A stretch of DNA of 64,000 bases from NCBI GenBank assembly GCA_902777325.1, contig CACYTH010000002.1, forward strand, positions 13,831-77,830. Direction: 5' to 3'. The stretch's first letter is position 1. Each line of letters starts with the position of its first letter. Origin of the DNA: an uncultured Coriobacteriaceae bacterium. GTDB taxonomy: Bacteria; Actinomycetota; Coriobacteriia; Coriobacteriales; Atopobiaceae. The translations under genes were made by a program, and so were the position numbers. Shown here piece by piece: positions 51,065 through 64,000 of this stretch. Under the pieces are notes generated by a model. It saw only the letters and a list, made by a program, of their open reading frames with translations. It ran no database searches and had not been told where the DNA came from.

Positions 51065-52231
51065 ATGTACAAGGTACACTGCCTCAACAACATCGCGAAG
51101 GTGGGCACCGACCGCCTCGGCGAGGGCTTCGACCTCACCGAGAACATCGATGAGGCCGAGGCCATCATGGTGCGCTCCGCCAGCCTCCACGAGCTCGACT
51201 TCTCCGACGACCTGCTCGCCGTCGCCCGCTGCGGCGCCGGCGTCAACAACATCCCCCTCGACCGCTGCGCCGAGAAGGGCATCGTCGTCTTCAACACGCC
51301 CGGCGCCAACGCCAACGGCGTCAAGGAGATGGTCATCGCCGGCATGCTGCTCGCCGCACGCGACATCGTGGGCGGAATCGAGTGGGTTGACGAGAACTCC
51401 GACGACCCCAACGTGGGCAAGGCTGCCGAGAAGGCCAAGAAGGACTTTGCGGGCACCGAGCTTGCCGGCAAGAACCTCGGCGTCATCGGACTTGGCGCCA
51501 TCGGCGCCATGGTGGCAAACGCCGGCCGCAGCCTCGGCATGCATGTCTATGGCTACGATCCCTACCTTTCGGTCAAGTACGCGTGGAGCCTCGACCGCCA
51601 TGTCCGCCACGTCAACAACATCTCCGAGATCTGGGCGAACTGCGACTACATCACCATCCACGTGCCGGCGACCGCCAAGACCAAGGGCATGATCGGCCGC
51701 GAGCAGATTGCCGCCATGCGCGACGGCGCCGTGGTGCTCAACTATGCCCGCGACGCCCTCGTGGACGAGCGCGCCATGGCCGAGGCCCTGCAGGAGGGCC
51801 ACATCCGCCGCTACATGACCGACTTCGCCAACTCCGTGACCACCAGCATGGCCCACGCCACCGTCACGCCGCACCTGGGCGCCTCTACCAAGGAGGCCGA
51901 GGACAACTGCGCCATCATGGCAGCCGACGAGCTTCGTGACTACCTGATCAACGGCAACATCACCAACTCGGTCAACTACGACGCGGTCGACATGGGGCCG
52001 ATGGAGGGCGCCATGCGTCTGGCCGTCTTCCACCTCAACCGTCCCAACATGATCGGCCAGATCACCTCCATCATCTCCTCCGCCAACATCAACATCGAGA
52101 ACATGGTCGACAAGAGCCGTGGCGACATCGCCTACTGCCTGCTCGAGCTCAGCGACGAGGCCCCCGAGGAGGCCATCGCCAAGCTCTCCGAGGTCGACGG
52201 CATCTACCGCGTGCGCGCCATCCGCCGGTAG
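51065..52231 (+). CDS. serA: D-3-phosphoglycerate dehydrogenase, ACT type (copy 1)
   Basis: SerA oxidises 3-phosphoglycerate to 3-phosphohydroxypyruvate. The 388-aa protein has the N-terminal substrate lobe (MVRSASLHELDF, GAGVNNIPLDRC), the NAD fold with GLGAIGAMVANAGRSLGMHVYGYDPYL, catalytic Arg in NYARDALVDE and His in TPHLGAST, and a C-terminal ACT domain (about 315-388, RPNMIGQITSIISSANINIENM). The Glu of the catalytic dyad, normally before that His, is not obvious (TDFANSVTTSM). A serine-binding ACT site would give feedback control. A second copy follows after a terminator. Confidence 0.92.
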   Translation: MYKVHCLNNIAKVGTDRLGEGFDLTENIDEAEAIMVRSASLHELDFSDDLLAVARCGAGVNNIPLDRCAEKGIVVFNTPGANANGVKEMVIAGMLLAARDIVGGIEWVDENSDDPNVGKAAEKAKKDFAGTELAGKNLGVIGLGAIGAMVANAGRSLGMHVYGYDPYLSVKYAWSLDRHVRHVNNISEIWANCDYITIHVPATAKTKGMIGREQIAAMRDGAVVLNYARDALVDERAMAEALQEGHIRRYMTDFANSVTTSMAHATVTPHLGASTKEAEDNCAIMAADELRDYLINGNITNSVNYDAVDMGPMEGAMRLAVFHLNRPNMIGQITSIISSANINIENMVDKSRGDIAYCLLELSDEAPEEAIAKLSEVDGIYRVRAIRR

Positions 52232-52254
52232 GGCTCCCTGTCCCAAGCGCTTGA

Positions 52255-52288
52255 GGGCGCTCGTCTCCAAGGGACGAGCGCCCTTTTT
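52255..52288 (+). terminator. intrinsic terminator of serA copy 1
   Basis: GGGCGCTCGTC (52255-52265) and GACGAGCGCCC (52273-52283) pair perfectly (11 bp), then TTTTT. Confidence 0.92.
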
Positions 52289-52423
52289 GCTTGCAGGCGG
52301 GTTGCATCCCAGATGCCGTGGCATCGTAGGCCTTCTGTTGGTTTGCAGCACCTTATGCCGCTTTGGACAAAGCAGTCGTAGAATCGGAAGGCACTCATCG
52401 AAACCGATGCAAAAGGAGCGTCA

Positions 52424-53596
52424 ATGTATCGCGTTCACTGCATGAACAACATCTCACAGTCCGGGCTGGACAAGCTCTACAAGAACTTCGCCCCAGCCAA
52501 GGACCTCTCCGTGGCCGACGCGGCCATCGTGCGTAGCACCAACATGCACGACATGGACCTGCCCGAAGGCCTTCTCGCCATCGCGCGCGCCGGTGCGGGC
52601 GTCAACAACATCCCCATCGACCGCTGCACCGAACAGGGCACGGTGGTCTTCAACACGCCTGGTGCCAACGCAAACGCCGTCAAGGAACTCGTGGTCGCCG
52701 GCATGCTCATGGCCTCTCGCGACATCATTGGCAGCGCCGAGTGGGTCAACGCCCATGCAGACGACGAGCAGGTGGCCTCCGACGCGGAGAAGGCCAAGAG
52801 CCAGTTTGGCGGCAACGAGATCGCCGGCAAGACCCTGGGCGTCATCGGCCTTGGCGCCATCGGTGCCATGGTCGCAAACGCAGGCCGAAGCCTCGGCATG
52901 CACGTGCTTGGCTTCGACCCCTACCTCTCGATCACCGCCGCCTGGAGCCTCGACCGTCACGTGCACTACGTGCAGCGCCTGGGCGAGATTCTCGAGAACG
53001 CCGACTACATCACCATCCACGTCCCGGCAAACGACAACACGCGCGGCATGATCGGCCGCGACCAGATTGCCCAGGCGAAGGACGGGGTCGTCTTCCTCAA
53101 CTTTGCCCGTGACGCACTGGTGGACGAGCAGGCCATGGCACGCGCGCTCGAGAACGGACACGTGCGCCGCTATGTGACCGACTTCGCCAACCCGACCACC
53201 ACGCACATGAAGAACGCCCTCGTGCTCTCGCACCTCGGCGCCTCCACGCGCGAGGCCGAGGCCAACTGCGCCGCCATGGCAGTCGACCAGCTGCAGAGCT
53301 ACCTGCTCGAGGGCAACATCGTCAACTCGGTCAATTTTGGCGACGTCGACCTCGGACCCATCCAGACCGACGAGCGCATCGTAGTGCTGCACCGCAACAT
53401 CCCCAACATGATCGGCCAGTTCACCCAGATCATCGCCGAGTGCGGGCTGAACATCGAGAACATGGCCAACAAGCGCCGCGGCGACAACGCCACCACGCTC
53501 ATCGAGACGAGCGGCCCGTGGGACTACAGCGTCGTCGAGTACATCAGCCAGATAGAGGGCGTCTACCGTACCCGCATGGTGGCTCCCGCCAACTAA
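52424..53596 (+). CDS. D-3-phosphoglycerate dehydrogenase, ACT type (copy 2)
   Basis: The 390-aa protein is a close paralogue of the gene just upstream and shares IHVP, GLGAIGAMVANAGRSLGMHV, NFARDALVDEQ, HLGAST and the C-terminal ACT domain (IPNMIGQFTQIIAECGLNIENMANK). As in copy 1, the region before the catalytic His (TDFANPTTTHM) lacks an evident Glu. It has its own leader (192 bp after copy 1, with a terminator between), so it is probably regulated separately. It could be a second SerA or a related 2-hydroxyacid dehydrogenase. AAAAGGAGCGTCA precedes ATG 52424. Confidence 0.88.
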   Translation: MYRVHCMNNISQSGLDKLYKNFAPAKDLSVADAAIVRSTNMHDMDLPEGLLAIARAGAGVNNIPIDRCTEQGTVVFNTPGANANAVKELVVAGMLMASRDIIGSAEWVNAHADDEQVASDAEKAKSQFGGNEIAGKTLGVIGLGAIGAMVANAGRSLGMHVLGFDPYLSITAAWSLDRHVHYVQRLGEILENADYITIHVPANDNTRGMIGRDQIAQAKDGVVFLNFARDALVDEQAMARALENGHVRRYVTDFANPTTTHMKNALVLSHLGASTREAEANCAAMAVDQLQSYLLEGNIVNSVNFGDVDLGPIQTDERIVVLHRNIPNMIGQFTQIIAECGLNIENMANKRRGDNATTLIETSGPWDYSVVEYISQIEGVYRTRMVAPAN

Positions 53597-54268: not shown

Positions 54269-54469
54269 CTACTCATTGCTCGTGCCCGCCCTTCCGAGAA
54301 CACCGCTGACGCCTACTTCAAAAGGAAATGTTCCTGCCCTGTTGAAAGCAGCAATGAACATGCGAATTGCATTTGAGGGTGTGGTTCCTATCGACTCTGT
54401 CGCCTCGAAAAAGCGCTCTTTCTCGGCAGGCAGAACCTTGGCTACGACTGGAGTCATCTTGTCTGACAT
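54269..54469 (-). CDS. RelB/DinJ-like antitoxin without an adjacent toxin
   Basis: The 66-aa protein fits the ribbon-helix-helix RelB/DinJ N-terminus (VVAKVLPAEKERFFEATESIGTTPSNAIRMFIAAFNRAGTFPF, where TPSNAIRMFI is typical), but the C-terminal toxin-binding part is short. No RelE/YafQ-like toxin reading frame lies downstream (54268 to 53939), so it is orphaned or an independent regulator. Ribosome binding site for ATG 54469 is weak. Repeated TGGTATG sites upstream suggest autoregulation. Confidence 0.7.
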   Translation of the reverse strand: MSDKMTPVVAKVLPAEKERFFEATESIGTTPSNAIRMFIAAFNRAGTFPFEVGVSGVLGRAGTSNE

Positions 54470-59899: not shown

Positions 59900-60808
59900 C
59901 TAGCGCGCCATGGCAGACGCGACCGCGCCTATCAGCTTGGCGCTGGCACCGAGCTCGGAAAGCACGATGTTGGGCTTGGGCATCTGCGACATCTGGAGGT
60001 CGGCCATCATGGAGCGCATGGAGATGTGCACGGCCTCGAGAAGCGCCGGCTGCACGCTGATGCCCCCGCCCAGGACGACCGTGTCTGGATCGACGATGCA
60101 CTGCAGGTTGAAGATCCAGGTGCAGAGGTCCTTGGCGTAGTGGTGCAGGCCGCGCAGTGCTGCGACGTCGCCGGCATTGACCCACTCGAAGAGGCGGACG
60201 CCGTCGATCGTGTCGTCGTCCTCAAGCCCCTTTGCGGCGAGGATGGAGCGCCTGAGCCCCTGCCAGCTGCAGAGACCCGACATCGCATCCAGCGAGCGAT
60301 ACTCCCCCAAGATGGGCGTGTGCCGCACGAAGGAGAACTCGCCGGCAAAGGAGTGCGCGCCGCGCAGCACGCGACCGTCGACCACGATGCCGCCGCCGAT
60401 GCCCGAGCCAATGGCCAGCACCACGCCCACCCGCGAGCCGCGCAGCGCCCCTGCGGCATGCTCGCCCAGGGCATAGGCCTTGCCGTTGTTCTCGATGGCC
60501 ACAGGAAGCCCGCAGGCAAACGAGAGCTCGGCCCCCAGGTCGACGCCGTCAAGGTAGGCAAGGCGGCCTCCCCCGATGACCATCCCCTGGCAGTCGCTCA
60601 CGTCGACGGTCCCCGGCACGCTCACGCAGACGCAGCGCGCGTCCTGGCCGTGGGAGCGGACGAGCGCGGCCAGCTCATCGACGAGCTCGGATGCGCTTGA
60701 GCACGAGACCTCGACCGTGCCCTCCTCCAGAAGCTCAAGGGCAGGCGACACCATGCCCCAGAGCACGTGATGGAGCCCGACGTCGAGGGCAAAGCAGTTG
60801 CTGGGCAT
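59900..60808 (-). CDS. ROK-family protein with degenerate kinase motifs
   Basis: The 302-aa protein has the ROK fold: N-terminal ALDVGLHHVLWG, the central GVVLAIGSGIGGGIVVDGRVLRG, AGEFSF, and VLGGGISVQPALLEAV. Three kinase marks are missing: the DxGxT phosphate loop reads DVGLHH, the catalytic ENDAN motif reads ENNGK (Asp lost), and the CxCGxxGC Zn site is absent. A sugar-binding role without phosphotransfer is likely, but sugar kinase activity cannot be ruled out. No N-terminal HTH is present, so it is not a typical ROK repressor. The structured element at 60935-61534 lies upstream. Confidence 0.8.
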   Translation of the reverse strand: MPSNCFALDVGLHHVLWGMVSPALELLEEGTVEVSCSSASELVDELAALVRSHGQDARCVCVSVPGTVDVSDCQGMVIGGGRLAYLDGVDLGAELSFACGLPVAIENNGKAYALGEHAAGALRGSRVGVVLAIGSGIGGGIVVDGRVLRGAHSFAGEFSFVRHTPILGEYRSLDAMSGLCSWQGLRRSILAAKGLEDDDTIDGVRLFEWVNAGDVAALRGLHHYAKDLCTWIFNLQCIVDPDTVVLGGGISVQPALLEAVHISMRSMMADLQMSQMPKPNIVLSELGASAKLIGAVASAMAR

Positions 60809-60934: not shown

Positions 60935-61534
60935 GCCACACGCCATGAGAGCTCAATCGAGTTCGTCGCGAGCCTTCGCCCTACGCCTACACCAGCTTCT
61001 CCGTGTTCCGTCAGCAGGCAGACAAGTCTGAGCGTTTGGGAGCGACCCTTGGCTTCTTGCCCGAGGAGCACGCCACATGCTCCCGTTTGTTGGCCCTGCG
61101 GGGGACTGGTTGCCCCCAGATTTCACCGAGATTCAGAAGGTTTAGCAGACCTTTGCCCAATGGGCTCGTCATACGGCTACTCTTGCCAGCTACTCCTGTT
61201 ATACACGGCTTTCGCCGCTTCAAGACGAACAGCACAGGTTGGCCTTCCTTGCCTGCTGTCGCGCGGTGCTACCCGCCTAGGTCCAAGGTTATTCCCCACC
61301 GGGGCGTCTATTGGCGCTGCCAGGAGTTCTGCACGTTCGAAGCGCTGATGCGCGCGCCGGAGCTTGGACTTGGGAGTTTCTCCCTCGACGACGGCCTTCG
61401 CAAGCCTGCCGAACGGTTCGCACGCACGGGTATCCCGCGTGCGGCTTCCGCTCCATACGCCCCGCCTCGGAAGGGTTCAATCCCCTTATGCACCGAGGTC
61501 CGACGAACTCGATTCAACTCTCAAGGTACGTGGC
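60935..61534. repeat. 600-bp non-coding element bounded by 34-bp inverted repeats, probable structured RNA on the minus strand
   Basis: The arms at 60935-60968 and 61501-61534 are inverted copies with 28 of 34 identical positions (20 of 22 in the inner part around ATCGAGTTCGTCG). Differences give three G-U pairs in a minus-strand RNA but one in a plus-strand RNA. The interior carries hairpins, among them GGCGAAAGCC (GNRA loop on the minus strand, around 61214-61225), GGGAGAAACTCCC (61374-61386), GGGGG...CCCCC (about 61099-61116), and GC-rich stem 61399-61450. No credible gene fits inside. The whole 855-bp gap between the ROK-like gene (60808) and recQ (61664) is gene-free; 60809-60934 and 61535-61663 hold a promoter-like region and an 8-bp hairpin (61614-61633). 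Confidence 0.7.
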
Positions 61535-61613
61535 GGCCAACCTCCCTGGCCGCCCTCGACGTGACCATAGTATGCCCAGCGGAATCCGGAAGCTATCGTG
61601 ATTTTTGTACGTT

Positions 61614-61633
61614 CACCTCAATATTTTGAGGTG
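61614..61633. terminator. AT-rich hairpin downstream of recQ
   Basis: CACCTCAA and TTGAGGTG pair perfectly (8 bp) around TATT, 30 bp after the recQ stop. The minus strand continues GAACGTACAAAAATC, without a T-run, so termination is uncertain. A second 8-bp hairpin (GGCGGCCA/TGGCCGCC) lies at about 61532-61554. Confidence 0.4.
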
Positions 61634-61663: not shown

Positions 61664-63295
61664 CTACCTGCAAAGCTCCTCGAGAAAGGCGTCGCCGTAT
61701 TTGCTTAGCTTGACCTCGCCCACGCCCGGCACCTCCAGGAGATCCTCCCGGCTCCGCGGGCGCCTGCGCACCATGGCCCTCAGCGTCCGGTCCGAGAAGA
61801 TCATGTATGGGGCAACATGCGCCTCGCTTGCCAGGCTCTTGCGCAGCACGCGCAGGCGCTGGAAGAGCTCCTCGTCAGACCCGTCGTGCACCCACGCGTC
61901 TGCCACTGCGTCCAGTCGCTCGTCTCGCTCGCGCCGCACGTCGTCCAGGGCCCTTCCGCCCGCACCAAACACGCGGCCTCCGGCCTGGCGCCTGCGCTCC
62001 ACCTTGAGGTAGCGCTCGGCCGTCTCGCCCGTGCAGACCGAGCAGCCACCACAGCCGTCTGGCGGCAGCACCATCCGCTGTCCGAAGTAGCGCAGCACGC
62101 GCGCACGCAGGCAGCTCGTGCTCATGGCATAGCCGATCATCTCGCCCAGGAGCCGCTCGCGCTGCTCGCGCAAGAAGCGCTGCTCGGCTGGGGTGACGCC
62201 CTCGGCGTACTCGATGTTGTCGATGAAGAAGTGCGCCGTGCGGATGTCCCCCCTGCTCCACAGCAGGTAGCAGGCGGCAGGGTCTCCGTCCCTGCCGGCA
62301 CGCCCGGCCTCCTGGTAGTACTCCTCCAGAGACTGCGGCATGCCACAGTTGATGACATAGCGCACGTTGCTCTTGTCGATGCCCATGCCAAAGGCGTTGG
62401 TCGCCACCAACACGTGCACGTCGTCGTTGACAAAGGCCTGCTGCGAGAGCGTGCGCTCGGAGTCGGACATCCCCGCGTGATAGGAGGCCGCCTTGATGCC
62501 GGCATCCTGGAGCCTCTCGCAGATCTGCTCCACCTTCTTGCGCGTGAGCGCGTACACGATGCCCGACTCCCCGGGGTGTTGCCTCGCATAGTTGACCGTC
62601 CAGCGCTCGCGATCCTTGGGCGTGAGCTCGAAGGAGGCAAGCTGCAGGTTGGGCCTGTCGAAGCCGCTCACCTCGATCACGGGATCGCGGAGGCCCAGAA
62701 GCTCGCGCACGTCGGTCTGCACGCGGGCCGTTGCCGTGGCCGTGAGCGCGGCCACGCGCGGACGGTTGGGCAGGGAGTCCACAAAGTCCCTGATGGCACG
62801 GTAGGCGGGCCTGAAGTCCTGGCCCCACTGGCTCACGCAGTGTGCCTCGTCCACCGCAACCAGAGGGATGTCTGCCGCCGCCGCAAAGGCGCGAAACCCT
62901 GGGTCGCCCAGACGCTCCGGGGCCACGTACATGAGGTCGTACCAGCCCGCCAGCGCCCGCCGGAGGACCTCGGGCCGCACGCGCGGCTTGAGTGTCGAGT
63001 TGTAGAACGAGCCCCTGATGCCCGCCTCCTTGAGGGCGCGCACCTGGTCGGCCATGAGCGAGATGAGCGGCGAGACCACAAGCGTGAGCCCCCCGAGCAC
63101 CACCGCCGGCACCTCGTAGCACACCGACTTCCCTGCTCCCGTGGGCATCACGGCCATGACGTCGCGGCCCGCGAGGACCGCCGCGATGACACGCTCCTGA
63201 CCCGGCCTGAAGCTCTGGTAGCCAAAGTGCTCGGACAGCGCCTGCCGGGCATCGTCGATGGTGGGTTGTATGCGCTGCGTTGAGTCCACGCTCAT
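61664..63295 (-). CDS. recQ: ATP-dependent DNA helicase RecQ, short form
   Basis: RecQ unwinds DNA 3' to 5' in recombination and repair. The 543-aa protein has Walker A MPTGAGKSVCYEVPA, VDEAHCVSQWGQDFRPAY (motif II and the aromatic-rich loop), GMGIDKSNVRYVINCGMPQ and QEAGRAGRDG (motifs V-VI), Zn-binding Cys in CLRARVLRYF and PDGCGGCSVC, and a C-terminal HRDC domain (about 470-540, LRVLRKSLASEAHVAPYMIFSD). The stretch between Zn domain and HRDC is only about 65 residues, so the winged-helix (RQC) domain is absent or much reduced. ATG 63295 is the family start. Confidence 0.92.
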   Translation of the reverse strand: MSVDSTQRIQPTIDDARQALSEHFGYQSFRPGQERVIAAVLAGRDVMAVMPTGAGKSVCYEVPAVVLGGLTLVVSPLISLMADQVRALKEAGIRGSFYNSTLKPRVRPEVLRRALAGWYDLMYVAPERLGDPGFRAFAAAADIPLVAVDEAHCVSQWGQDFRPAYRAIRDFVDSLPNRPRVAALTATATARVQTDVRELLGLRDPVIEVSGFDRPNLQLASFELTPKDRERWTVNYARQHPGESGIVYALTRKKVEQICERLQDAGIKAASYHAGMSDSERTLSQQAFVNDDVHVLVATNAFGMGIDKSNVRYVINCGMPQSLEEYYQEAGRAGRDGDPAACYLLWSRGDIRTAHFFIDNIEYAEGVTPAEQRFLREQRERLLGEMIGYAMSTSCLRARVLRYFGQRMVLPPDGCGGCSVCTGETAERYLKVERRRQAGGRVFGAGGRALDDVRRERDERLDAVADAWVHDGSDEELFQRLRVLRKSLASEAHVAPYMIFSDRTLRAMVRRRPRSREDLLEVPGVGEVKLSKYGDAFLEELCR

Positions 63296-63358
63296 CGCTT
63301 CCCTCGTGGTGGTGGTATCCTTTGTGACTCGACCCACTACCCTACACCAAGGAATCCC

Positions 63359-64000
63359 GTGAGAAGCTCGCGCGCCATCCACATCGCATCCGCAGCCTTT
63401 GCCTGCCTCCTCTGGAGCGGCTCGCTGATCGCATCAAAGCTCAGCTACGACACGCTGGGCCCCATGTCACTGGGGCTCATCCGCTTTGCCATCTCCACCG
63501 TCGTGTTCTTTGCCATCCGCCTGGTCATGCGCGATCATGAGATGCCCGACCTTCGTGGCATGGCGGCCATCGCCCTCACGGGCTTTCTGGGCACGACGCT
63601 CTACTTTGCCGCCGAGAACTACGGCGTCGCCATGCTGCCCGCCTCGACCTCGTCGCTCATCGTGGGGTCGTTTCCAGCCATGGCGCTTGTGCTCGAGTGC
63701 CTGATAGACAAGGTGCGCCCCCAGCCGGCAAAGACCTTGGGCATCGTCCTGGCGTTTGTGGGCGTCGCCCTGCTCGCCCTCACCGAGAGCGCCGAGGGTG
63801 GCTCGGACGTGATGCTCGGCAGTCTCATCCTCATGTTTGGCGGCCTGTGCTGGGCGCTCTACAACTTTGCGATGCGCCTCGTGCTGGGCACCTACTCGTC
63901 CCTCACCATCACCACCTGGCAGACCCTCTTTGGCGCGTTGGGATTCATCCCCTTCGTGCTCTATGAGGGTGTCCCGCAAAGCCTGCCCTCGCCCACCACC
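63359..64000 (+). CDS. EamA/DMT-family transporter (truncated by window end)
   Basis: This 214-residue partial protein has about seven transmembrane segments with EamA repeats (AFACLLWSGSLIASKLSYD, LRGMAAIALTGFLGTTLYFAAENYGVAMLPASTSSLI, TLGIVLAFVGVALLAL), the drug/metabolite transporter pattern. It starts with GTG 63359 behind AAGGAA and continues past base 64000 without a stop. It is divergent from recQ, 63 bp between starts. Transported substrate unknown. Confidence 0.88.
   Translation, partial: MRSSRAIHIASAAFACLLWSGSLIASKLSYDTLGPMSLGLIRFAISTVVFFAIRLVMRDHEMPDLRGMAAIALTGFLGTTLYFAAENYGVAMLPASTSSLIVGSFPAMALVLECLIDKVRPQPAKTLGIVLAFVGVALLALTESAEGGSDVMLGSLILMFGGLCWALYNFAMRLVLGTYSSLTITTWQTLFGALGFIPFVLYEGVPQSLPSPTT

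Follow-up and report, generated by a model that had tools for sequence, protein, structure and literature searches.

The element between the recQ and ROK-family genes of the window, by which we mean the whole stretch of 64,000 nucleotides analysed here, is a ROOL RNA gene, present in single copy and encoded on the minus strand; we hold both this identity and the strand with very high confidence. Because the family ROOL (RF03087) is already known, the element adds no new kind of RNA but a new member, from a divergent chromosomal branch and in an unusual context.

Identity and fold of the RNA

Searching the region with cmscan against Rfam 15 returned ROOL as the sole match, running from 61521 to 60951 on the minus strand. 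The match is full-length (RF03087 model positions 1-574 of 574, not truncated) and scores 247.4 bits (E 3.8e-55) against a gathering cut-off of 99.1, while GOLLD gave no match in the window in the same kind of search. An earlier note on this DNA had described a 600-bp unit that might encode a large structured minus-strand RNA and had proposed an Infernal search against Rfam together with a search for covariation among homologues. The element and its strand stand as described there; what the earlier note failed to recognise is that the RNA belongs to a known family, and the actual extent of the unit is 60951-61521 together with the outer pairs of the closing helix. A BLASTN search of phage and plasmid records with the element gave no matches, so its identity would have been missed by nucleotide search used alone. 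On the same covariance model the window copy scores below most Bacillota ROOLs, which mostly exceed 300 bits, and it therefore represents a divergent branch. Like RF03087 ROOLs, it combines a full-length model match with the same helices, covariation in the same pairs, a variable linker in the same place and a size of about 570 nt; unlike them in general, it belongs to a G+C-rich, divergent Coriobacteriia branch. A crude consensus scan found no sigma-70 promoter-like site at the element, and a consensus terminator scan found a single terminator-like site, which lies on the plus strand and is close to the chance expectation.

The inverted arms at 60935-60968 and 61501-61534, identical at 28 of 34 positions, are the ROOL closing helix P1, an RNA helix rather than a transposon end. 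Their match is beyond chance, since the best 34-nt ungapped inverted match reached 25 (mean 22) in 200 dinucleotide-preserving shuffles of the 1.5-kb region and at most 27 in 40 other 1.5-kb stretches of the window. Read on the minus strand, the six mismatches comprise three G-U pairs, one A-C (G-U on the plus strand), one U-U and one G-G; the arms and their G-U bias, three on the minus strand versus one on the plus strand, thus survive the recount as the earlier note had reported them. Three parts make up the helix: 16 pairs of the Rfam model, then an extension of 8 bp that other copies share, then a tip peculiar to this copy. The 16 pairs, placed by mapping the Rfam structure line onto the window, join a 5' strand at 61500-61515 to a 3' strand at 60954-60969, both on the minus strand; among eight Coriobacteriia copies (the window copy and seven others), 9 of these 16 pairs have changed on both sides and 92% of cells are paired. 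The extension, which lies beyond the modelled Rfam helix, joins 61516-61523 to 60946-60953 on the minus strand and has at most one unpaired position per copy in all eight. Outermost, 61524-61534 pairs with 60935-60945 at 9 of 11 positions (minus strand), a portion largely specific to the window copy.

Covariation extends through the whole structure. The eight copies, of which the seven further ones all lie above the cut-off in the RF03087 model, were aligned with MAFFT without structure, and the Rfam structure was then laid on this alignment, which was not fitted to the covariance model. Both sides have changed in 59 of 150 pairs, compared to 26.8 +/- 3.3 in shuffles (0 of 500 reached 59) and at most 18 in slid structures. 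Paired cells make up 79% (shuffles 73%, slid structures at most 50%), and the covariation score is 0.310 (shuffles 0.168, slid structures at most 0.117). G-U cells exceed A-C cells by 120 to 56, indicating that the minus strand is the strand selected as RNA. Covariation among homologues is found, and the selection on minus-strand pairing that had been read from the two arms is seen across copies.

The GNRA-capped stem noticed earlier on the minus strand (GGCGAAAGCC) is present: it is the GAAA-capped hairpin GCGGCGAAAGCCGU at 61205-61218 (minus strand), which corresponds to helix 17, the best covarying helix, with 5 of 5 pairs changed on both sides among the eight copies. Some model pairs fail to form in the Coriobacteriia clade, such as parts of helices 5, 7 and 24, which we attribute to local register shifts of the divergent branch and to the alignment. 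A poorly alignable stretch between GUAGCCGUAUGACG and UUCUGAAU in the Coriobacteriia alignment fits the variable linker of ROOL. For the candidate kissing loop J6/8-L8 (bridge B4), with the loop placed by eye and not from a published figure, the window copy forms 3 of 5 pairs and the seven others 4-5 of 5.

The minus strand folds more stably than its own shuffles, with a z of -4.4; for the plus strand z is -3.2. The longest internal open reading frame, of 208 aa at 61003-61629 on the plus strand, has a gc3 of 0.64 and a gc2 of 0.59, unlike the neighbouring genes (gc3 about 0.87-0.88); their codon-position G+C pattern is absent from the internal frames, in agreement with the earlier judgement that no credible frame lies inside.

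A patchy but apparently old chromosomal branch

The family model detected ROOL in 2 of 18 genomes from the genus, in 4 of 140 from the family and in 5 of 398 drawn as a sample of the class; one more copy, from Eggerthellaceae, came to light in a motif scan of named genomes. The window's genome holds one copy and the other positive genomes at most two. Two arrangements of paired copies were observed: in G415 (MAG S20M_St_21) two different copies lie head to tail, 36 bp apart (L067:6735-7932), and in G082 (MAG RGIG5826) two copies lie 8 kb apart.

In a maximum likelihood tree of 26 ROOLs, the eight Coriobacteriia copies all fall together in a single clade (100/100) that sits on a long stem. The window ROOL is sister to a congener's copy, followed by other members of the family and then by other families, so that the clade roughly follows host taxonomy and is not scattered among viral ROOLs. 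Judged from this single clade, its long stem and its host-like order, the branch looks old in the class, with no sign of recent import from any viral ROOL sampled. We found no mention of ROOL in Coriobacteriia in the literature searched; the original 2017 description lay outside that search, and we therefore do not claim the range extension as certain. What we newly describe is a branch of ROOLs in Coriobacteriia that is chromosomal, lacks nearby tRNAs and in some cases neighbours defence-type genes.

The gene lies downstream of recQ (61664-63382, minus strand; Pfam DEAD, Helicase_C, RecQ_Zn_bind and HRDC) and upstream of the ROK-family gene (59900-60808, minus strand; Pfam ROK, E 2.9e-31), both outside the RNA. 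The spacing between these two genes is 855 bp in the window versus about 160 bp without ROOL in the congeners G013, whose RecQ is 88% identical to that of the window, and G011. The congener G015 has its ROOL on the other side of recQ, at a distance of about 9 kb and ahead of an Abi_2 (AbiD-like) gene. Nucleotide similarity between the window and G015 ends at 61530 and about 60946, near the ends of the extended P1, as does similarity among the closer copies in general. Empty sites, together with similarity that ends near P1, indicate that the unit gained, lost or moved is approximately the RNA gene alone. The 160-bp gaps of the congeners align poorly with the window flanks, and exact junctions are not readable from them. 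The patchy sites may have arisen by transposition, by ordinary recombination, or from an ancestral set of sites followed by many losses. Just after recQ, at 61610-61632, lies a palindrome, CACCTCAAAATATTGAGGTG, which is possibly the recQ terminator; a similar one follows recQ in G015.

Genomic context and alternative explanations

The literature presents ROOL as an RNA of phages and prophages that frequently lies near tRNA islands (PMC12286853). Among the viral ROOLs that we inspected, 10 of 12 have 4-12 tRNAs within 3 kb, some plus tmRNA. The window copy differs from such phage and prophage ROOLs, which mostly sit among tRNAs and tmRNA, in being chromosomal and in having no tRNA array nearby: 60 kb separate it from the nearest tRNA. 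The available flanks of the other seven Coriobacteriia copies (at most 3 kb, some shorter) contain none. Three of nine copies from Bacillota genomes lie inside tRNA arrays and six have no tRNA nearby, so that Coriobacteriia are not alone in having chromosomal ROOLs without tRNAs.

The known association with phages (PMC12286853), together with the single, sporadic copy (5 of the 398 genomes), would suit a decayed prophage remnant, in which a ROOL delivered by a phage was left as a non-functional relic. We consider this unlikely: the RNA keeps its complete structure, which is under selection for pairing within the clade; the copies from Coriobacteriia group together, roughly in the order of host taxonomy, instead of falling among viral ROOLs; and no phage hallmark was found among the five proteins at or near the window copy that were scanned against phage families. 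That scan matched the RecQ helicase and one transporter-like protein only, as expected of general families. The fact that ROOL shares its strand with recQ and the ROK gene also raises the question whether it could serve recQ as a 3' UTR or regulatory element, or the ROK gene as a 5' element. This is very improbable, as other copies adjoin different genes in different orientations, congeners have the recQ-ROK pair without ROOL, and the terminator-like palindrome near 61610-61632 separates ROOL from recQ, and its counterpart follows recQ in G015, where that site holds no ROOL.

The earlier note had also offered a non-autonomous mobile element as an alternative. In such a MITE-like element a transposase would recognise the terminal inverted repeats and the RNA fold would be incidental. 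Indirect evidence in its favour comes from the congeners without ROOL at the recQ-ROK site and from copies at unrelated sites that share no common sequence beyond P1, where similarity ends. Against it, a MITE is expected in several near-identical copies, not in one per genome or two at most; the arms covary as an RNA helix instead of being conserved in sequence; and the full internal ROOL structure is retained. No transposase was found beside ROOL, as had been stated before, and the flanks of the empty sites align too loosely for a target duplication to be read. Given the RF03087 match and the internal covariation, we regard incidental folding of a MITE-like element as having hardly any probability, and the element is best described as a ROOL RNA gene.

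Several genes around the other Coriobacteriia copies are of a defence type. Besides the AbiD-like gene in G015, they include an antitoxin-toxin pair, a UvrD-type helicase and a type I restriction locus (G082), which, in this small sample, hints at defence neighbourhoods for these ROOLs. In G015, G082 and G094 a WYL-domain regulator is encoded at 0.1-3 kb from ROOL (L063:1091-1669, L064, L066:2925-5014). There is one close homologue of this regulator per genome, and that of the window's genome is on a different contig from ROOL. None was found at the Bacillota and viral loci, a provisional result, since a wrong reading frame had entered part of the profile. As G082 and G094 may share one ancestral locus, we treat the WYL association as a lead only. 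Two further genes were observed in these surroundings. The window's contig carries, outside the window (L061:8070-8987), an Abi_2/AbiD-like gene whose G015 homologue has ROOL directly upstream. In G082 a 1606-aa RNA polymerase beta'-like protein is encoded a few kb after the second ROOL (L065:1394-6214), near the type I restriction locus, and matches PHROG 25354 (E 5e-239).

Possible assembly and role

ROOLs are among the largest natural RNA-only assemblies known. Those studied assemble from RNA alone into octamers about 28 nm across, whose interior is empty apart from the linker (PMC12286853, PMC12515178); cryo-EM structures are given in PMC12286853 and, according to the commentary PMC12515178, by Ling et al. 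By homology with these structures, we infer that the window copy assembles in the same manner. Its transcript would run leftward, on the minus strand, from the recQ-ROK intergenic region, would be closed by the long P1 helix and would adopt the branched ROOL fold that the covariance-model match and the covariation demonstrate; a hollow homo-octameric cage would then form without protein, with the variable linker inside.

Two known RNAs are useful for comparison. The 520-nt long non-coding RNA of Ligilactobacillus salivarius is abundant, non-essential and carried by the megaplasmid pMP118 (PMC5643018), and is treated as ROOL in PMC12286853. Like the window copy, it is a non-phage ROOL with partial presence among strains (34 of 45 strains, PMC5643018); unlike that RNA, whose expression was measured, the window ROOL is chromosomal and known from sequence alone. 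GOLLD, which forms an RNA-only 14-mer cage in phages and prophages (PMC12286853), resembles ROOL as a large, phage-linked, cage-forming kind of RNA often near tRNA islands, but is unrelated to it in sequence and structure.

As to function, the context suggests a tentative role as an accessory RNA in the phage-host contest, a reading that we consider possible although not probable. The RNA would be kin to the ROOLs of phage tRNA arrays and would persist by itself as a gene of the chromosome, which lineages acquire or lose as one unit. More speculative still, and doubtful in our view, is the proposal that Coriobacteriia harbour a domesticated chromosomal branch, a bare RNA gene that moves between sites without phage or tRNA array and serves in anti-phage defence, partly under the neighbouring WYL-domain regulator. 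The lone chromosomal branch, with its empty recQ-ROK sites in congeners, separates the RNA from the tRNA-array setting of phages and offers a simple one-gene system for asking what the job of the cage is without the phage.

Elsewhere in the window, a conserved stretch at 54.2-54.5 kb was considered as a second RNA and rejected in favour of the more likely reading, a small minus-strand gene resembling antitoxin genes. At 54269-54469 (minus strand) it contains a frame of about 66 aa (MSDKMTPVVAKVLPAEKERFFEATESIGTTPSNAIRMF...) with the look of a RelB/DinJ-type antitoxin, without a called partner, and the DNA of this region is 81% identical in G015. Finally, two consecutive D-3-phosphoglycerate dehydrogenase-like genes, 60% identical to each other, follow a serC-like gene at 51065-53596.
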